Assembly: GCA_029552745.1 (NCBI GenBank)
Contig: JAKPDK010000160.1
Location: 62,001-126,000, forward strand
Direction of reading: 5' to 3'
DNA length: 64,000 bases
DNA from: Candidatus Hydrogenedentota bacterium
GTDB lineage: Bacteria; Hydrogenedentota; Hydrogenedentia; Hydrogenedentales; SLHB01
Shown here piece by piece: positions 7,901-50,128 of the stretch. Numbering within the stretch: the first letter of the stretch is position 1; each line of letters begins with the position of its first letter. The translations under genes and the position numbers were made by a program. The notes beneath the pieces were generated by a model. It did no database searches. It saw only the letters and a list, made by a program, of their open reading frames with translations, and was not told where the DNA came from.

Positions 7901-9282
7901 GCGTCTACAAACCCTGTGATATCCGAGGTCCGATTGAGGAGCTTACTCCAGAGCTTTATTATCGTTGGGGATGCGTACTTGGCTCCTTGCTGCCTGAAGG
8001 GGCACGCTGTGTCACAGGTGGTGATGTCCGCCCTTCAACCCGAGAATTTCTGCCTGCCCTGGAAAAAGGATTATGTGATACGGGTGCTCATGTAGTGTCT
8101 ACTGGCATACAGCCCACTCCCATAGTTTATTTCGTGAAAAGAACATTGCCCGCCCATGCTTGCGCCATTGTCACCGCATCGCACAGCCCTGCGGATGTGA
8201 ACGGCTTGAAATGGATGATTGGCGACCTGCCACCAGACGAGGACGATGTCAAACAGCTCCGGCAGTTAGCCGAAACTGCAGGCTGGAGTGTTCGCCGTAA
8301 AGGCACGGTAGAAACCTACGATCCTATCCAACAATATGGCGATTGGCTCAGAAACAACTTTCATTTGGCAAACGATGAACGCCTGCTGTCGGTAATTCTG
8401 GACTTCGGAAACGGTTGCTGGGCAAATTGCGGCGCCAGGTTGTACACCTCTGTTTTTCCAAAATTTGCCGTAAAAAGTATTAATTCCCATCCTGATGGAA
8501 TATTCCCATCCCGTGTCCCCGACTGCTCAAAACCGGAACACATGAAACAACTGGCAGAAAAGGTGCTGGAATATCATGCTGACCTGGGCATTGCTTTTGA
8601 CGGTGACGGTGACCGAGTGGGCTTTGTTGATGAGACGGGCACACCTTTAGTTGCGGAGGAAGCTACCTACATTCTTATTCAATCTTTTGGTGGTGATTTC
8701 TCAGGCGGCAGGTTTGTCTATGATCTGAAATTTTCAGACACAATTCCCGCAGCAGCAAGGGCGGCGGGTGCCAGTCCCATCCCAGAACGTAGTGGCCACA
8801 CATTCATACGAAGTCGGATGATTCAAGAAGATGCTCTGTTCGGAGCCGAAATCAGCGGACATTATTTTTATCGCGAGTTAAACTACGGCGATGATGGGTT
8901 GTTCACCGCCTGTCGCCTCACGGCGTATTTGACACGAACAGGGATCCCGTTTTCGAAATTACGAGAAAACGCCCCAAAACCTTTCATTACTCCGGACATC
9001 CGCCTGGAAGTTCAACCAGATGCTCATGCTTTTGTGGAAAGAGTGAAGCGCTTGTTTGCCGACCTGCCTCTGAGTTTTGTGGACGGGGTCCGCGTAGACT
9101 TCCCCACAGGTTGGGCGCTCGCTAGACCATCAGTCACAGAAAACAAAGTCACTTTCCGTTTTGAAGGCACCAGCCAAGAAAACTTAGGAAAAACGATCGC
9201 TTTTTTTACAGAACGACTCAAAGAACTACGCGAACCGTTACAGCCGCTGCTGGCTAAGCATTCCGCGCCAACTGAACCTTGA
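7897..9282 (+). CDS. phosphoglucomutase/phosphomannomutase family protein
   Basis: Moves a phosphate between C1 and C6 of a hexose (glucose or mannose phosphates), feeding nucleotide-sugar synthesis or glycan breakdown. The 461 residues carry all four family loops: the phosphoserine loop TASHSP with Ser95 (usual TASHNP), the Mg loop DGDGDR at 235-240, the sugar loop GAEISGH at 316-322, and the phosphate-binding RFEGTSQEN at about 421-429, where RxSGTEP is usual. The last loop and the Asn-to-Ser change make it a divergent member. It is coupled to the sugar kinase by ATGA overlap. Its 3' end overlaps the end of the facing mannosidase gene by 29 bases. Confidence 0.88.
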   Translation: MSVYKPCDIRGPIEELTPELYYRWGCVLGSLLPEGARCVTGGDVRPSTREFLPALEKGLCDTGAHVVSTGIQPTPIVYFVKRTLPAHACAIVTASHSPADVNGLKWMIGDLPPDEDDVKQLRQLAETAGWSVRRKGTVETYDPIQQYGDWLRNNFHLANDERLLSVILDFGNGCWANCGARLYTSVFPKFAVKSINSHPDGIFPSRVPDCSKPEHMKQLAEKVLEYHADLGIAFDGDGDRVGFVDETGTPLVAEEATYILIQSFGGDFSGGRFVYDLKFSDTIPAAARAAGASPIPERSGHTFIRSRMIQEDALFGAEISGHYFYRELNYGDDGLFTACRLTAYLTRTGIPFSKLRENAPKPFITPDIRLEVQPDAHAFVERVKRLFADLPLSFVDGVRVDFPTGWALARPSVTENKVTFRFEGTSQENLGKTIAFFTERLKELREPLQPLLAKHSAPTEP

Positions 9283-12200
9283 ATGTCCTTATCTCAAAAG
9301 GTTTGATGTAAAAACGAATAGAATGGCCAGACCACTCTACCGGTACGTCATTTTCTTCCATGAGATCACATTCCACTGCCGATTCCAAACACGTGCCAAA
9401 AGTCAACTCCACGGGACCGCGCTGCCCATACGCTTCGTATACCCGGACGATCAGGTGATCCGAATCCTCACAACGCTTCACCGTATGGATGATCACATTT
9501 TCGGCACTTGTTGATGCGAAGGAATACGCGGAGGGCAAAGGTCCCGACTGCGCTTTTGTCCTCGCCGTTCGCAGCGGGACGTTCAATTCGAAAGCCTCTT
9601 GTACCGTGCGAGTACGCCATGTACCCGCGTGCGGATATATGGAATACACAAAATCGTGCTGCCCTTCGTCCGCGTGCGGGTCAGGGCTAATGGGAGAACG
9701 CAACAACGATAATCGAAGGCAGTTCCCTTTTATGTCATATCCATACTTGCAGTCATTTAACAGACTGACTCCATAATTACCTTCTGAAAGATCCGCCCAC
9801 TTATGTCCTGTGACCTCAAAACGCGCCTTATCCCAATCCGTGTTGTTATGGGTAGGACGTTCAATTGCTGCAAATTGAATCTCGTAAGTCGCTCGAGAAG
9901 CACGTATATCCACAGGAAAAGCAACCTTCAGTAATGTGCGTTTCTCATGCCAGTCCACCCAAGTCACAAAGTCAACCCGTGATGTATGAGCATACATGAC
10001 GATGTCCTGCTCAATGGTGCTACGCTCTGTTCTTCTCTTAAAACGTAGCACAACTCGGATGGGACCATTCTCTACAAGTTCAAGTTTCTCAGCCGGCGAC
10101 GGCTCCCACCAGACGTCTGCAAAATTAAAGTCGATATCCCAAGCATCATTTCGCGCAGGGCGATCATCAAATAATTGCAAAACATTCCCACGCTCACCTT
10201 TTTCCAAAATATCCCTGTCTCTTTTCAAATCCTGTATACGGGTCAAGGTACCCGAACCATCAACACAAATTCGAAGAAATTCGTTTTCAAGCTCGGCAAA
10301 CTGCTTCCCGTGGATGTCTTCACCCACCCGTCCTCTAACCGGCTGGATCCGGGGATATGACCGGGCTGAATTCGGCTCGCGTTTTGTAACAACCTCATAG
10401 ACGCTGTACCCCAAAGGAGGAACCTCTCCCGCAAGGAAGAGCAGTTCGCCCGCCTCCGACTCTTGTGTCAGACATTCCTCTCCTCTGCAATTAACGACTC
10501 GAACGTCTTCGCCCCAAGCGGTACCGGAAAGAAGTGCCACATCCGTCCGAACCCATGGCAAGGTGTTAAAAACCACTACAGGCGCCTCCGCTCCACCCGT
10601 ATCAACCAACGACAAGATATGTTCCGCCGCCCGGTTCAATGCCTGTTCCGTCAGCGCTCGAGCTGCTGCGTAGTCTTCCTCAGCCACTTTATAGACCTCT
10701 GTTATTGAAGAACCGGGGAGGATATCATGAAATTGGTTCAGCAATACCTTCTTCCAAGCGGCGTTTATGGCTTCTTGTTCATAAAGCCCCCCGTACAGCG
10801 TGGAGACACTATTGAAAAACTCGGCATCTCGAAGCAACAATTCGCATTTACGGTTGTTCCGTTTCGTTCGCGCCTGAGTTGTCTGACACCCACGATGTAA
10901 TTCGAGATATAATTCCCCATTCCATACAGGCAGCGTCTCCGTCGGACATCTGCGCTTCATCTCATCGAGACAATCTTGCATTCTTCCAAACTTACAACGT
11001 GGAACGCCCGCGATGTCCCCCAATCTCCTGCCCGTCTCGATCATGTCAACGGTTGGGCCGCCGCCGCCATCTCCGTAGCCGTAGCTGAAGGGAAGCATAT
11101 CGACGCGATCTTTCTGTGCGAATTGCTCCCATTGCATCATTAACTGCGGCAACCGTATTGGTGGATCATAGTTCAACGGTGGAATCAGACACGCTATGCG
11201 GGTACCGTCCGGTCCCTCCCATTGAAAATAATCATAGGGAAACTTGGTAAACTCTGACCAATTGATCTTGTTAGTCACGAACGTGTCGATCTGCGCCTTA
11301 CGGAGGATCTGCGGCAACGCCCAGCTGTCGCCAAACGTGTCGGGCAACCACGCCGTCCGTGTATGTATACCAAACTCTTTCCGGAAAAACCGATTGCCAA
11401 ATAAGAGTTGTCGGACAAAGGATTCCCCGCAAGGAACATTGCAGTCCGATTCCACATACATTCCCCCTATGGGCTCCCAACGCCCTTCTGCCACTCTCTC
11501 TCTGATCTGTTGAAATACTTCAGGATAGTGCTCCTTTATCCACTCCAGTTGCGCCGGCTGGCTCGCCATAAACAAGAAATCTGGATATCGCTCCATCAAA
11601 CGCAGCACAGTTGAAAAAGTTCTTCCGCACTTACGCCGAGTCTCCCTGAGTGGCCAAAGCCAAGCCGTATCAATATGAGATTGCCCCACGAGAACAAGAT
11701 TGCCCATATCGCCGGCATTGCGGAACTGTTCTAAACCATGTTTCAATTCTTCCCGTGCTTCCGTGAGCGACTCGTAATATTGAGTAGAGCCGGGATGACG
11801 AAGGTCAATCCGCTTGATTGTTTTCTCCAATAAGGCCAGAAGTCGACGACGGATTACAGACTCCTTGGGCAGAACGGACACAACCTCGAGCACAACCTGA
11901 AAATCCCAATAGACATCCCAAGAATTCTTATCAAAGACTGCAATATCCGCGTACCCAAATTCGTGGTATGCATCGTGTTGCACACTGGGAACCGACTCCA
12001 GATGAACACAAAACTGTTCCCCTCCCTGTGCGTTCTCCGAAAGAAAAACCGCGTCTCGTTTTGAGTCTATACCTTGAAAAGGCGTCCCATTCAGGTAGAC
12101 GAGTGACTCTCCACCGGGGCGAATCAACGCCACCACGGGCATGCCCCGCATAGATTCGGGAATCGTGACCGTCATTCTGAACCATGTTGTCTGGTCAAAA

Positions 12201-12397
12201 CCGCCCCAACGCGAATGAACAGCAAAAGGCTGCCAACCGTCTTCCGGTGGACGCTCCGGGCCACGTCCTCTCCCGGTAACGCAATAGTCAATTAGTTCGA
12301 TAGGCGTCCGTTGTTGATAAAACAATTCTTCGACTTCGCGTAAACGATTCCTAATCTGCCGAATTACAATTTCACGTTCAGCTTCAAAACACTGCAT
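9254..12397 (-). CDS. alpha-mannosidase, GH38 (copy A)
   Basis: Cleaves alpha-mannose from glycans; probably cytoplasmic since no signal peptide is seen. The frame opens further upstream inside its neighbour, but AGGA lies 5 bases before the ATG at 12397, giving 1047 residues. An N-terminal sandwich domain precedes the catalytic barrel. Zinc ligands His241 and Asp243 lie in SHIDTAWLWP, nucleophile Asp353 in PDTFG, and the fourth ligand His501 in ELHRGCQT. It resembles the cytosolic (MAN2C1-like) type. It follows copy B after 7 bases. The stop codon of copy B (TAG) lies inside this gene's ribosome binding site (TTTAGGAAAC), so translation is probably coupled. Confidence 0.92.
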   Translation of the reverse strand: MQCFEAEREIVIRQIRNRLREVEELFYQQRTPIELIDYCVTGRGRGPERPPEDGWQPFAVHSRWGGFDQTTWFRMTVTIPESMRGMPVVALIRPGGESLVYLNGTPFQGIDSKRDAVFLSENAQGGEQFCVHLESVPSVQHDAYHEFGYADIAVFDKNSWDVYWDFQVVLEVVSVLPKESVIRRRLLALLEKTIKRIDLRHPGSTQYYESLTEAREELKHGLEQFRNAGDMGNLVLVGQSHIDTAWLWPLRETRRKCGRTFSTVLRLMERYPDFLFMASQPAQLEWIKEHYPEVFQQIRERVAEGRWEPIGGMYVESDCNVPCGESFVRQLLFGNRFFRKEFGIHTRTAWLPDTFGDSWALPQILRKAQIDTFVTNKINWSEFTKFPYDYFQWEGPDGTRIACLIPPLNYDPPIRLPQLMMQWEQFAQKDRVDMLPFSYGYGDGGGGPTVDMIETGRRLGDIAGVPRCKFGRMQDCLDEMKRRCPTETLPVWNGELYLELHRGCQTTQARTKRNNRKCELLLRDAEFFNSVSTLYGGLYEQEAINAAWKKVLLNQFHDILPGSSITEVYKVAEEDYAAARALTEQALNRAAEHILSLVDTGGAEAPVVVFNTLPWVRTDVALLSGTAWGEDVRVVNCRGEECLTQESEAGELLFLAGEVPPLGYSVYEVVTKREPNSARSYPRIQPVRGRVGEDIHGKQFAELENEFLRICVDGSGTLTRIQDLKRDRDILEKGERGNVLQLFDDRPARNDAWDIDFNFADVWWEPSPAEKLELVENGPIRVVLRFKRRTERSTIEQDIVMYAHTSRVDFVTWVDWHEKRTLLKVAFPVDIRASRATYEIQFAAIERPTHNNTDWDKARFEVTGHKWADLSEGNYGVSLLNDCKYGYDIKGNCLRLSLLRSPISPDPHADEGQHDFVYSIYPHAGTWRTRTVQEAFELNVPLRTARTKAQSGPLPSAYSFASTSAENVIIHTVKRCEDSDHLIVRVYEAYGQRGPVELTFGTCLESAVECDLMEENDVPVEWSGHSIRFYIKPFEIRTFKVQLARNA

Positions 12398-12404
12398 AAG
12401 TTTC

Positions 12405-15400
12405 CTAAACCTTCTTCGTTCGTAGCTTCGTGGATTTAGACACAAATAATAACTTGAACGTTTTGATCTCGAACGGCAAAACCGAAAATTCGAAACCACT
12501 ATTGTTCGATTTCAAGCGCCTGTCGTTTTCCTCCATCAGGTCGCACTCAGAAACCTCCAGGAGAGGCAAAGAGAATTCCAATCTAACTTTCGCGTGATTC
12601 CCATAAGGCTCGTATAACCGCAAAATAACGTGTTCAGAATCTTCTGCAAGTTTCACGGTATCAATTATGACGTCCTCCGGTTCCATACCGACAAGCAGCC
12701 CTGACATATCGCCAAAAGATATCGTCACGCTACCAGGCAACGCCATCAAGGGCACATTAAGCTCGTAGGCTTCCCGAACTGTTTCACTTCTCCAGTCTCC
12801 TGGATGAGGTAAGAGGGAATATGTGAACTCATGTTCCCCTTCATCTGCTGTGGGATCGGGGTCGACGGGAGAACGTAAGAGGGATATTCTCAAAACGTTG
12901 TCTTTAATGTCATACCCATATTTGCAATCGTTTAAGAGACTAACACCGTAGTCTCCCTCAGATAGGTCTGCCCATTTTTGCGCGGGAACCTCAAACTGTG
13001 CGGCGTCGAATTCGCGACTGCGGTGCGTTGGTCGTTCAATAGCACCGAATTGTACCTCATAGGTTGCAAACGATGATCGCACATCCACGGGGAATGCCGC
13101 TTTCAGCAAGGTCCGTTTTTCGTGCCAATGAACTCGCGTAACAAAGTCAATTCGTGGAGAACCCGCGTCTAACCGAATGTCCTGAATAATCCGGCTTCGG
13201 TTCCATGCAGCTGTGACCCTCACAATAGCCCTGAGTGGTCCGCTCTCCACCACTTCGATCGACTCGATATCTTGTTTATCAAAGGTCCGCCGCTTTTGCT
13301 CAAAATTGAAGTCAATGTCCCACGCTTCCCAAACATGCGGAAAATCTTCAAAGAACTGCAAGACATTCGCCTCACTTCCCTGGGGTAACACGTCTCTTCC
13401 AAATCGTTTGTCATAGACGCGTTGCAGTGTGCCCCTATCTGTAAGTTCTACGCGAATCAACTCGTTTTCTATCGAATGAACATTTGCAGTTACACCACCT
13501 TCATTCCCCGCCTCGCTTTCGCCTGAAACGAGCCGGTACGTTGCCCAACCTAACGGGGGCACATCTTCGGCTTTGAAAACGATGCGGTTCGCGCCCAGGC
13601 GTTGGAGTGACACACGGACACCGTCTTCATTCTCCAATACAAAATCAGCTTTCGGTAATTTACCTTCAAACTCCACAAGTCCTGACCTTGCCCACGAAAG
13701 ACTGTTAAAAACGGCAAGAGAAGTCCACCTGTTTCCGGCACCTTTCTGAGGTACGAACACATTTAAAGCACGTTCCCGCAGATCCGCAGCCTGCTCGAAA
13801 AGTTCCGCGTAGACTTTATCTGACCAACGATACACTTCTGTAATCGATGTTCCAGGCAATATATCGTGAAATTGACAAGTCAACACCTGTTTCCAGCAGT
13901 CCCGGATCTCTTTTTTGCGGTAAGTACCCCCTCGAAGAAAAGCCAACGTGCTCCAGAGCTCGACATCCCTCATGAGAAGTTCCGCGCGGCGGTTATTCCG
14001 TTTGTTACGCGACTGGGAAGTCTGGCAACCTCGATGCAATTCAAAATAAAGCTCCCCGTTCCATACAGGCCTACGTTCTCTCGGACACTCTTGCGCCATT
14101 TGCTCCAACGCCACGGAAACCGTACCGAATTCACATTGCGGCAGTCCCACGATATTTTGGAGACGTTTCCCGTTCTCTATCATTTCCGGAGTTGGGCCAC
14201 CGCCTCCGTCGCCGTATCCAAACGGGAAAATAGTGGTATCCGCTCGGTCCTTTTCTTTAAAACGATTCCACTGTTCTGCGACCTGTTGGGCACATATATT
14301 GCCATTGTAATTGTAAGGACGTATGACCGTAACGCGCGACCCGTCCGTACCCTCCCATTCGAAAAAGGTGTAAGGAAACTCGGTATATTGATTCCAGTCC
14401 AGTTTAGAGGTGACGAGATAGTCTACTTGGGCTTTCTTCAGTATCTGGGGCAGAGCCCAACAATAACCGAAGGTGTCGGGTACCCACGCGACGCGGGAGT
14501 GGACGCCGAATTCCTCTCGGAAAAACCGATTTCCATACACGGCCTGACGAATTAAAGCCTCTCCTGAAGGAATGTTTAAGTCGGGTTCAACCCAAAAACA
14601 CCCGTTCGGCTCCCATCGTCCTTCTTTGACACGCCGTTTGATTTGTCGATACAAGTCTGGGTAATACGTCTTGACAAATTCATACTGAGCAGGTTGACTG
14701 CAAGAAAAATGGTACTCGGGGTACCGTTTCATCAAAGCCAAAACCGTGGAAAAAGTCCTTCCACATTTCCGCTGCGTCTCTCGAATGGGCCAAAGCCATG
14801 CCGTGTCAATATGGGAATGCCCCGTGAAAATCATTTTGCCGTTTAAGGGGGAGGAAGGAAATTCTTTCAGACCACCTCTCAATAATTCCGAAGCTTCTTT
14901 CAACGACCTGATGTATTTCTCTTCATCCGGGTGGGTACTTCCCCTCCAGGTTCTTGAAATGTGCTCTGTTCCATCGTCCCCAAAATTCAGCTCCACTTTC
15001 TTGATGGAGGCGTCAATAACATCCAACAGCCGCACGGCTGGTGCATAGTCCGCGGGTAGCACACGCCATGTCTCCAAGGCGACGCGGAAGTCCCAATAAG
15101 TCTCCCAGATTTCGCGATGAAAAATAGCAACATCTGCGTATTCAAAGACCCGGTGTTCATCAAATCGCGTCGAGGGTACAGACTCAAGAAGGATTTCGAA
15201 CAATTCCCCCTCTCGGGCATTTTCTGTCAGTAAAAGCCAATCCCTGCCATTGTCAATGCCTTGTGCCGGTTTCCCGTTAACATATGCCAACGACTCCCCT
15301 TGCGGACGCAAAAAAGCTACAACGGACCTTCCTTTCCAATCCCTAGGGACTTTCCACCGAAGGCGGAACCACGTGGTTTGATCGTACCCACCCCAAAAAC

Positions 15401-15584
15401 CCGGTACAGAAAAGGGCTTCCAACCTGTACGGGGAGGTCTTTCTGGTCCGCGTCCTTGTCCTGTAATCCGGTATTGGACCGTTGAAATAGCGGAACGTCT
15501 TGTGAAGATGGTCTTTTGAATCCTGCTCAACCGTGCGCGAATTTGGTCTGAGATTATTCTTCGTTCAACGGGGAAATTCGGCAT
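12405..15584 (-). CDS. alpha-mannosidase, GH38 (copy B)
   Basis: A 1059-residue paralogue of the next gene and first in the pair. Zinc ligands His258 and Asp260 (SHIDTAWLWP), nucleophile Asp370 (VPDTFG) and His517 (ELHRGCQT) are all present, so it should be active. It has no signal peptide. The two copies share the whole domain order and many blocks (GGYDQTTWFR/GGFDQTTWFR, RKCGRTFSTVL, YGDGGGGPT, SEGDYGVSLLND), which marks an old tandem duplication. TAGGA lies about 7 bases before the ATG. The upstream region carries a TTGACG hexamer at 15669-15674 (minus strand) and then the left end of the repeat element. Confidence 0.93.
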   Translation of the reverse strand: MPNFPVERRIISDQIRARLSRIQKTIFTRRSAISTVQYRITGQGRGPERPPRTGWKPFSVPGFWGGYDQTTWFRLRWKVPRDWKGRSVVAFLRPQGESLAYVNGKPAQGIDNGRDWLLLTENAREGELFEILLESVPSTRFDEHRVFEYADVAIFHREIWETYWDFRVALETWRVLPADYAPAVRLLDVIDASIKKVELNFGDDGTEHISRTWRGSTHPDEEKYIRSLKEASELLRGGLKEFPSSPLNGKMIFTGHSHIDTAWLWPIRETQRKCGRTFSTVLALMKRYPEYHFSCSQPAQYEFVKTYYPDLYRQIKRRVKEGRWEPNGCFWVEPDLNIPSGEALIRQAVYGNRFFREEFGVHSRVAWVPDTFGYCWALPQILKKAQVDYLVTSKLDWNQYTEFPYTFFEWEGTDGSRVTVIRPYNYNGNICAQQVAEQWNRFKEKDRADTTIFPFGYGDGGGGPTPEMIENGKRLQNIVGLPQCEFGTVSVALEQMAQECPRERRPVWNGELYFELHRGCQTSQSRNKRNNRRAELLMRDVELWSTLAFLRGGTYRKKEIRDCWKQVLTCQFHDILPGTSITEVYRWSDKVYAELFEQAADLRERALNVFVPQKGAGNRWTSLAVFNSLSWARSGLVEFEGKLPKADFVLENEDGVRVSLQRLGANRIVFKAEDVPPLGWATYRLVSGESEAGNEGGVTANVHSIENELIRVELTDRGTLQRVYDKRFGRDVLPQGSEANVLQFFEDFPHVWEAWDIDFNFEQKRRTFDKQDIESIEVVESGPLRAIVRVTAAWNRSRIIQDIRLDAGSPRIDFVTRVHWHEKRTLLKAAFPVDVRSSFATYEVQFGAIERPTHRSREFDAAQFEVPAQKWADLSEGDYGVSLLNDCKYGYDIKDNVLRISLLRSPVDPDPTADEGEHEFTYSLLPHPGDWRSETVREAYELNVPLMALPGSVTISFGDMSGLLVGMEPEDVIIDTVKLAEDSEHVILRLYEPYGNHAKVRLEFSLPLLEVSECDLMEENDRRLKSNNSGFEFSVLPFEIKTFKLLFVSKSTKLRTKKV

Positions 15585-15718
15585 AAAAAGATCCTACCTC
15601 TTAACAACAAAAAATTTGTCTTTCCATAGCCCAAGCGTACGTAGAAGAAGTAAAAAGGAAACTACTTCGTCAAGTCCTTGGTGGGCATTAAAAACTACGC
15701 CTTCGGATGGGATGAAAT
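15585..15718. other. upstream region of the mannosidase pair
   Basis: This stretch between the copy B start and the repeat element holds the ribosome binding site and a minus-strand TTGACG at 15674-15669 as a possible -35. The -10 that would go with it (TACTTC after 16 bases) is weak. Nothing else is seen. Confidence 0.35.
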
Positions 15719-15983
15719 CAAATTGTTGTATAAGTCCAGTACCCTTGGCACCTTTTGTTATGTTGGATGAGGAATTGAAGAGAGGACTTTCCATGAAAGT
15801 TATGAAGACAAAGGCACTGACGCCTGGCCTCATAGGTAGGTTTGATCTATCTATGCCCCCTTAGTCCCCGCACGCGGCGAAATGGCATCAATACGACACA
15901 ACCACAGTCAAGTCTATTCAAGTCTCCCGCACGCGGAGGGATAGCTCCCCACCGGGCCGTTCTTCTGTCATCCCTTCTTACTC

Positions 15984-16000
15984 CCCCGCATGCCGGGGGA
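15984..16000. repeat. GC-rich hairpin inside repeat copy 1
   Basis: CCCCCG and CGGGGG arms around a CATGC loop. It is the third of three CCCGCAyGCsGG units spaced 59 and 60 bases apart (15867, 15926, 15986). Confidence 0.45.
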
Positions 16001-16153
16001 CACAGGGGGGTGAACCCTGCACAGGGGATAGAAAGCTGTCCCCCGTTGTCATTGCGAGGAGCCCTGAAGGGGCGACGTGGGAATCCCCTTAGGTACCCGC
16101 AGATTACCCCGACCCATGCCCCGTGTCATCTTGCGCTACGCGGTTGAGGGGAA

Positions 16154-16173
16154 GGGCGAGGCATGCCTCGCCC
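16154..16173. repeat. perfect 20-bp palindrome
   Basis: GGGCGAGGCATGCCTCGCCC is its own reverse complement. It sits in the loop of the inner hairpin of repeat copy 1 and is followed by CTACAAG. The other copy has GGGCGC...GCGCCC followed by TACAAG at the matching place. Confidence 0.6.
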
Positions 16174-16384
16174 CTACAAGGGGGATAGACTCGCTCCTCG
16201 CAATGACAACCGGGCGTACAAGCCTGGTCTAAGTCCTCGATGCAGTGCCAAAGCTTTGTGAACTTATGCACTTGTTCTAACGAGAGAAAGAAAATAGGCT
16301 AATGTCATTGAAAACAAAACACAGCGTGCCGCGACAAAGAATATGTTTCGAAGAAGTTCGAGACGCCCCTGAAATCGCGTCAAT

Positions 16385-48761: not shown

Positions 48762-49487
48762 CTATCGACCTAAATGCAGCCGCTGAGCAAGAAAGTGCGG
48801 CAGCTTACTGGCAATAATCCGCTCGGCTGCCTGTTCCACGGGATACTCCACTCGGACCAGTTCATACAAGTGCCGGTCGGTATCTAAAATCCCAAAGGCT
48901 GCCCGGGGATCTCCGTCACGGGGCTGACCAACAGAACCCGGATTGATAAAAAACATCTTTTCGTCCGTAATTTTGAAAGTAGAGTCATCTTCCAGCCCAT
49001 AGCTTCCGTCCAGCGAAAAAATTGCCGGACAGTGCGTATGGCCAAAAAAACACACTCTATGGCCTAACTGTGACACATAATCAAAATAAGGCAAAGCATC
49101 TTCCCAGGCAAAAAGATAAAAATCCCGATCCATCGGGGTACCATGGGACGCTAGAAAATGCTCGAATGACCTGTTGACGGGAAGCTCTCTTAACCACTGT
49201 TGATTTTCAGGCGTCAGGTGGTCCCGCGTCCATAAAGCGGCAGACAACGCCACCGGGTTGAACCCCCAGGGTTCTTCCAAGCCACACGCTACAGCATCGT
49301 GATTACCGCAAACAGTGGGAATATTGCGTTCTTTCACGATATCCACACATTCGTTGGGACTGGCATTGTATCCCACCACATCGCCCAGACATACCACCTG
49401 GTCTATTCCCAACGTATCAATTTTGTTCAACACCGCTTGCAGCGCCTCTAAATTGGCGTGCAAATCGGAAATAATCGCATATCGCAA
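48762..49487 (-). CDS. calcineurin-like metallophosphoesterase
   Basis: A 241-residue phosphoesterase of the YfcE/MPP type. The start is TTG with GAGGGG about 10 bases upstream. Metal ligands are all present: Asp8 and His10 (SDLHAN), Asp36 (GDVVGYN), Asn62-His63 (GNHD), a His in ASHGTP, and GHTHCP. A likely substrate is a phosphodiester or nucleotide, but this cannot be told from the sequence. It stands upstream of hisB with an 81-base gap and faces repeat element copy 2. Confidence 0.88.
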   Translation of the reverse strand: MRYAIISDLHANLEALQAVLNKIDTLGIDQVVCLGDVVGYNASPNECVDIVKERNIPTVCGNHDAVACGLEEPWGFNPVALSAALWTRDHLTPENQQWLRELPVNRSFEHFLASHGTPMDRDFYLFAWEDALPYFDYVSQLGHRVCFFGHTHCPAIFSLDGSYGLEDDSTFKITDEKMFFINPGSVGQPRDGDPRAAFGILDTDRHLYELVRVEYPVEQAAERIIASKLPHFLAQRLHLGR

Positions 49488-49576
49488 GGGAAACTTACCC
49501 CTCTTTTATGCTCACGCTACAAGATAAACACTTAGTCTGATGCGCTTATTAGATTACTCTCCGCGGAACAATAAAG
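49488..49576. other. upstream region of the phosphoesterase gene
   Basis: Contains the gene's ribosome binding site. No clear promoter pair; no small gene. Confidence 0.3.
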
Positions 49577-49998
49577 CAAATTATTGTATAAGTCCAGTAC
49601 CTTTGGCACTTTTTGTTGTGTTGAATAAGGAATTGAACATAGGACGTTGCATAAAGGTCATTAAAAGTAAGACACCGACGCATGGCATTTCCGAAGTACG
49701 TTTGAACTATTTACGAACCCCTTTGACCAATCGGGACTACTTGTTTTTCCGTATTACGTCCTATTCCGCTTTGGCCCGCCCCCTGTCATTGCGCGGAGCC
49801 CCGAAAGGACGACGTGGCAATCCCCTCAGGTATCAGGTGAGAAACCCGGAAGCGGGATGGGGCGCCACGCGTTGCGCCCTACAAGAGACGAGGGGATTGC
49901 TTCGTCGCTTCGGGGACTCGCTCCTCGCAATGACAACCGAGCGCGTAAGCCTGGTCTGTCTCCTCGATGCAGTGCCAAAGGTTTGTGAACTTATGCAA
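49577..49998. repeat. MITE-like repeat element, copy 2
   Basis: About 422 bases, same orientation as copy 1 at 15719-16270. The ends are an imperfect inverted repeat: TTGTATAAGTCCAGTA-CCTTTGGCAC (left, 49584-49609) against TTGCATAAGTTCACAAACCTTTGGCAC read from the right end (49998-49972). Inside, GTCATTGCGCGGAGC... (49785-49826) pairs with ...GCTCCTCGCAATGAC (49891-49934) over roughly 40 bases, ending in AATCCCCT/AGGGGATT. The loop carries a GGGCGC/GCGCCC stem. A reading frame crosses the element, but differences between the two copies fall on all three codon positions, so it is not a protein under selection. It lies in a divergent promoter region. Confidence 0.72.
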
Positions 49999-50128
49999 TT
50001 ATGAAAAATCGTACAACGTAAACCACAATATAGACAAGACGGATACGTCAATTTACCAAAACAAAATACGGCATTTCTATGCTATCATGTTGGGGAAAAT
50101 GGAAAATTAGACGGCAAGGGTCTCCTGC
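49999..50128. other. upstream region of the membrane-protein operon
   Basis: Lies between the right end of the repeat and the next gene. Contains AAGGG 8 bases before the ATG. A TTTACC/TATGCT pair has a 20-base spacer and is not convincing. Confidence 0.3.

Follow-up and report, generated by a model that had tools for sequence, protein, structure and literature searches.

Two MITEs in the 64,000-nt stretch of DNA analysed here (the window) were, at a probability that we put at roughly 0.86, mobilised in trans by an ISKpn28-like insertion sequence (IS) of the IS481 family and inserted in a fixed orientation beside predicted promoters. The two copies, both on the forward strand and both intergenic, occupy positions 15727-16270 (copy 1, 544 bp) and 49585-49997 (copy 2, 413 bp), and the two ends of each match those of a genome-wide family. 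A 5-bp target duplication flanks each copy on either side: ATTGT (15722-15726) and, with one mismatch, CTTGT (16271-16275) around copy 1, and two identical ATTAT pentamers (49580-49584 and 49998-50002) around copy 2. In copy 1, the left terminal inverted repeat is TGTATAAGTCCAGTACCCTTGGCAC (15727-15751, forward strand) and the right one is GTGCCAAAGCTTTGTGAACTTATGCA (16245-16270, forward strand). The initial annotation had already proposed a same-orientation pair of MITE-like elements with imperfect terminal inverted repeats, a reading that the copies, their ends, their duplications and an IS relative now support; both copies are indeed present, and a 23-bp end motif found at two places in the window is absent from all 100 shuffled versions. 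Their exact limits lie slightly inside the proposed ones (15719-16270 and 49577-49998), and the target duplications, which had escaped inspection by eye, are 5 bp long at both copies. Likewise, the common left and right blocks hold, spanning 114 nt at 82% identity and 86 nt at 90% identity, respectively, whereas the inner block that had been counted with them turned out to be a separate palindromic repeat rather than a hallmark of the MITE. A search of the 64-kb window against Rfam returned no matches.

The search for further copies that the initial annotation had recommended, together with a definition of their exact ends and a check for target duplications of 2-10 bp, revealed about 90 MITEs in the 4.36-Mb genome (188 contigs), with ends TGTATAAGTCCAGTACCTTTGGCAC...GTGCCAAAGGTTTGTGAACTTATGCA, imperfect terminal inverted repeats of 25/26 bp, lengths of mostly 300-740 bp, target duplications of 5 bp and no transposase gene. 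A left-end query of the whole genome gave 40 scored matches among 105 candidates, a 15-mer pattern was found at 89 places (8 for the reversed control), and a right-end pattern at 50 (0 in the control). Profile searches of the stretches around the matches placed both ends in 56 copies, the left end only in 36 and the right end only in 17; about 15 of the half-copies are termini of the autonomous IS, cut off where a contig breaks. The 5-bp duplication was perfect in 9 of the 56 paired copies and carried one mismatch in another 14, where permutation expects 0.16 and 1.08, respectively; 23 copies thus have a duplication with no or one mismatch compared with 1.2 expected. Could the two window copies nevertheless represent an old duplicated non-coding block or a regulatory element, and not mobile DNA at all? 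Both being intergenic and their inner block belonging to another repeat family would fit such a view, but the dozens of precisely delimited copies scattered over unrelated sites, their target duplications and the IS with matching ends speak so strongly against it that the copy survey already refutes it, and we assign it practically no weight. Searches of 24 further genomes from this taxonomic family found neither IS ends nor MITE ends. The left-only copies most probably represent MITEs that have decayed or been interrupted; that they form a separate unit ending at a palindromic repeat was considered and rejected, given that further tandem repeats follow and that in at least one of them (L204) a decayed right end is present with a perfect duplication. 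At another locus (L009, contig C3), two MITE left ends lie only 41 bp apart, which suggests a second insertion directly beside the first.

What could have moved elements that carry no transposase gene? Some mobilising factor had been postulated for them, and a transposase-encoding relative with the same ends does exist in the same genome: an autonomous IS481-family IS of 1,086 bp with ends TGTATAAG...CTTATGCA, TG...CA termini and one 346-codon ORF, whose transposase, we infer, mobilised the MITEs in trans. The MITEs match the IS in two terminal stretches only, from position 1 to about 60-73 and from about 1039 to 1086, mostly at 80-97% identity; they keep the outer ~60 bp (left) and ~45 bp (right) of the IS, including the TG...CA inverted repeats, around a middle part that is unrelated to it. 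The IS sequence is a composite of two contig ends with a 141-bp identical overlap, as a full-length copy is not assembled in this genome, and its copies, at least eight, all sit at contig breaks. Eight contigs end inside an element with the MITE-type left end, the ~140-bp ends are identical or nearly so between most copies, and the rve transposase is present on contigs bearing IS ends; breaks of this sort typically point to a recent multi-copy repeat, which the assembler was unable to cross. IS halves on different contigs can be paired by their identical duplications (GGTTA, CTGAA, GCGGC, ATAGT, TATTG and TCCGA), and one more duplication, TTCGC, pairs an IS half with an older copy on contig C25. 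Contig C24, which carries the window, itself begins inside an autonomous copy (C24:1-141), the other half of which probably ends contig C23, TATTG being the common duplication.

The IS transposase scores above the cut-offs of PF00665 and PF13683 and just above that of the N-terminal HTH_28, and displays a DDE triad (D185, D243 and E278), the latter two separated by 34 residues; against the PDB, it has only distant matches to chains named integrase. Its best model is the NCBIfam IS481 equivalog, yet with 174.9 bits it stays below the cut-off of 224 (ISKpn28 reaches 235), and it is therefore filed as IS481-like, on the ISKpn28 branch. Some 32 residues at the N-terminus of the transposase and some 15 at its C-terminus extend beyond the general IS481 model. 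ISKpn28, found on plasmids, prophages and chromosomes of Klebsiella and E. coli, is its nearest named relative, with a transposase 43% identical over the whole length. Both elements have 346 codons running to the element end without an internal stop codon, TG...CA ends, a 5-bp duplication and, on the transposase 3' side only, a TTG adjoining that duplication. The right inner spacer is 1 nt longer in both as well as in a Nitrosophilus relative, and the two differ in their inner repeat motif, which reads ATATTGCAA in ISKpn28 and TTTGGCAC here. Older, decayed relatives of the transposase occur at C25:391342-391551 (one stop, 93% identity) and C106:462657-462899 (three stops, 46%), implying either a long residence of the IS in this lineage or more than one arrival. 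Like other bacterial MITEs, the elements described here are short, non-coding and share terminal inverted repeats and target duplications with a resident IS, but they differ from them in their IS481-family parent and their promoter-oriented insertion; the titles and abstracts of ten papers mentioning both IS481 and MITE describe no IS481-derived MITE.

The target duplication borders directly on the −35 box of a predicted promoter of the sigma70 type, which points away from the element and is invariably found at the same end of it. Outward from the left end, the 90 distinct sites follow the scheme N5-TTGACA-N17/18-TATAAT: five unconstrained bases precede T (96%), T (83%), G (78%), A (60%), C (39%) and A (40%), after which there is little signal for ~15 positions until a T-A-rich, TATAAT-type hexamer appears at positions 29-35. 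By matrix scoring, a strong −10 element starts at position 29 in 35 flanks and at position 30 in 34, compared with 0-9 flanks at any other position; expressed by windows, 80% of the flanks have one in 27-31, as opposed to 0-9% in nearly all other windows and 17% in 32-36. The spacer is accordingly 17 or 18 bp, about equally frequently, as in sigma70 promoters. Of the 90 sites, 72 have a strong −10 at the expected distance, a feature that only 6 of 102 TTGs located elsewhere in these flanks possess (Fisher p = 8e-28), while the intergenic control TTGs within the window, a small set, have one in 15 of 127 cases; in the remaining 18 of the 90 flanks, a strong −10 is missing from its expected place. 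In 47 of 53 copies, an outward-directed ORF starts no more than 340 bp from the left end, at a median distance of 85 bp. By contrast, no TTG peak accompanies the right ends, which face a gene start in 36 of 52 copies, as expected for intergenic DNA. In the window, both predicted promoters lie on the reverse strand. The duplication of copy 1 adjoins the −35-like hexamer TTGATT (15716-15721), followed at a spacing of 18 by a weak −10-like hexamer, TAGTTT (15692-15697), that faces the putative gene for a glycoside hydrolase family 38 alpha-mannosidase (12405-15584, reverse strand); that of copy 2 adjoins TTGCTT (49574-49579), followed at a spacing of 17 by TAATCT (49551-49556), which faces the putative gene for a calcineurin-like (YfcE-type) phosphodiesterase (48762-49487, reverse strand).

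The same rule recurs in other hosts. Thermomonas hydrothermalis harbours an IS with an about 65% identical transposase, whose left ends have CAA at −8 to −6, i.e. at the same offset, in 21 of 22 cases and a −10-like hexamer at the same spacing in 64% (0-14% in controls); the target there is mostly TTGC, a poor −35 box. Six loci of this species (L259, L261, L270, L273, L274 and L276) are solo left ends of about 30-85 bp, without a transposase, which sit at the correct promoter-adjacent site and might be deletion remnants retained as part of the promoter upstream region. Among relatives from many phyla, TTG occurs at offset 6-8 in 22 of the 36 with a usable end, and in 0-1 at other offsets; several Patescibacterial sites resemble full promoters (e.g. 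TTGACA, 17 bp, TATACT at L162). For ISKpn28 on Klebsiella plasmids, the duplications CTTTC, GAGCA and TCTCC are each followed by TTG, and E. coli relatives inserted beside hokD and elsewhere likewise show a 5-bp duplication followed by TTG, with exceptions (L413, which has neither a duplication nor TTG, and L415, with TTTTAG). The published locations of ISKpn28 upstream of hokG and of a holin gene (PMC6339943, PMC6908951) agree with the promoter-adjacent rule. Viral contigs yielded mostly chance matches: a transposase lies upstream at only 10 distinct sites, 8 of which have TTG, several of these eight being the same two host sites.

Does the transposase read the promoter as such, or only the few bases next to its cut? 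In the simplest scheme, it would recognise just the short motif TTG[A/C] at the cut, genic insertions would be purged, and the surviving intergenic sites would happen to be promoters. Such a scheme draws on TTG being the most conserved feature and on the prevalence of TTGC, with its poor −35 character, in Thermomonas; it is nonetheless improbable, because only 6% of the other TTGs in these flanks are accompanied by a −10, because the sites without TTG keep it (84%, versus 78% of those with TTG), which argues that the promoter is chosen rather than the −35 motif alone, and because most of the eight nearly identical, presumably recent IS left ends already have a −10-like hexamer at the expected spacing. 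Since it is the whole promoter that is selected (−35, 17/18-bp spacer and −10), the transposition complex probably recognises promoters as such; what is observed is that the left end of the element, where the transposase ORF has its 3' terminus, and the adjoining duplication lie against the −35 hexamer. The complex would most likely dock on the RNA polymerase holoenzyme or on sigma region 4, within about −40 to −36, with another face of RNA polymerase near −40 as an alternative contact; class II activators bind near −40, roughly the proposed docking place. Orientation may be determined by the slight asymmetry of the inverted repeats, of which the right one has a spacer longer by 1 nt. Insertion of this kind would spare genes and core promoters, which is its likely advantage, and replace only the upstream regulatory region. 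Alternatively, the transposase itself could read the −35 and −10 elements, or the shape of promoter DNA, without RNA polymerase. The fixed 5-bp distance to the −35 would suit direct reading, as would the fact that this analysis identified no protein partner; on the other hand, spacers of 17 and 18 bp are tolerated about equally and a weak −35 is accepted when the −10 is good, both as RNA polymerase does, and the cut and the −10 are some 25-30 bp apart, all of which makes direct reading rather unlikely, though clearly less so than recognition of the short motif alone.

It is conceivable, as a tentative generalisation to which we would give slightly less than even odds, that the ISKpn28-like branch of IS481, across several phyla, lands on the RNA polymerase-sigma70 promoter complex at about −40 in a fixed orientation, uses the −35 box as a stop for its transposase, and so represents a counterpart of the yeast Ty elements, which home to RNA polymerase III genes, that arose independently of TnGBS. 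The TnGBS ICEs, together with ISLre2 and ISKra4, belong to the Mutator superfamily and insert upstream of sigmaA promoters. For TnGBS and ISLre2, this insertion is oriented and keeps a constant spacing; TnGBS and related ISs come to lie 15-17 bp ahead of the −35 box, and the asymmetry of the inverted repeats of Mutator-type elements is reported to be responsible for their orientation (PMC3942029). The transposase described here, in contrast, matches IS481/rve models and not Mutator-like ones, the superfamilies being unrelated, and insertion takes place 5 bp, instead of 15-17 bp, upstream of the −35 box. A search of the open-access literature retrieved no account of promoter-upstream targeting for the IS481 family; insertion upstream of promoters is thus known for Mutator-superfamily elements and, as far as that literature goes, new for this family.

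A further consequence of the target concerns the transposase itself, whose ORF extends through the final base of the IS, with no stop inside the element. In the frame that leaves the IS, TTGA at positions 6-9 provides TGA as the third codon, and a stop at this third codon is the first one in 40 of 90 flanks; the commonest first in-frame stop is the TGA within the TTGA(CA) of the −35. Annotated ISKpn28 proteins vary in length between copies, and a stop codon taken from the target explains these variable C-termini. The idea that the target is chosen in order to give a stop codon was rejected, as the non-coding MITEs use the same target and the TTGC of Thermomonas gives no stop. In IS481 members with NCTAGN targets (such as ISLxc2 and ISLxx4), the target site also supplies the stop codon (PMC2516522), while most IS481 members generate 6-bp duplications (PMC10045372). 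The IS studied here shares with the NCTAGN members an IS481-type transposase and a target-supplied stop, but in those members the duplicated NCTAGN is at the same time the target motif, whereas here the motif lies outside the 5-bp duplication, on one side only, and is part of a predicted promoter; the target-supplied stop is therefore a habit of the IS481 family in a new form.

Short DNA motifs or guide RNAs are the usual explanation for how bacterial ISs choose their targets. What does it mean, then, that a common IS family with tractable hosts such as E. coli inserts beside predicted promoters with single-base precision? Two questions become testable, namely whether RNA polymerase guides these insertions and how they rewire regulation without breaking genes. 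The elements may also serve as a natural promoter-tagging tool, and they offer a rule for annotation, by which a left end marks a predicted promoter about 5 bp away.

Two minor observations concern the repeats in and around copy 1. A 98-nt direct repeat with 73% identity (10851-10948 and 13990-14087) lies inside the neighbouring large genes 9254-12499 and 12405-15584, suggesting that the two are paralogous. The inner block of the window copies is a palindromic repeat with the arm CTCCTCGCAATGACAA, nested in the ancestral MITE; in copy 1, it spans 16041-16214, with arms at 16041-16062 and 16193-16214. This separate repeat family, for the string of which no description was found in the literature, has 369 matches in the genome with one mismatch allowed, compared with none for the control, and many of its members are nested in MITEs or stand in tandem with other repeats. 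A second palindrome, GGGCGAGGCATGCCTCGCCCCTACA or close variants of it, occurs in the window at about 16150-16180 and at L020, L028, L057, L205 and L219; it recurs inside or beside the same arrays, so that three repeat families are stacked there.
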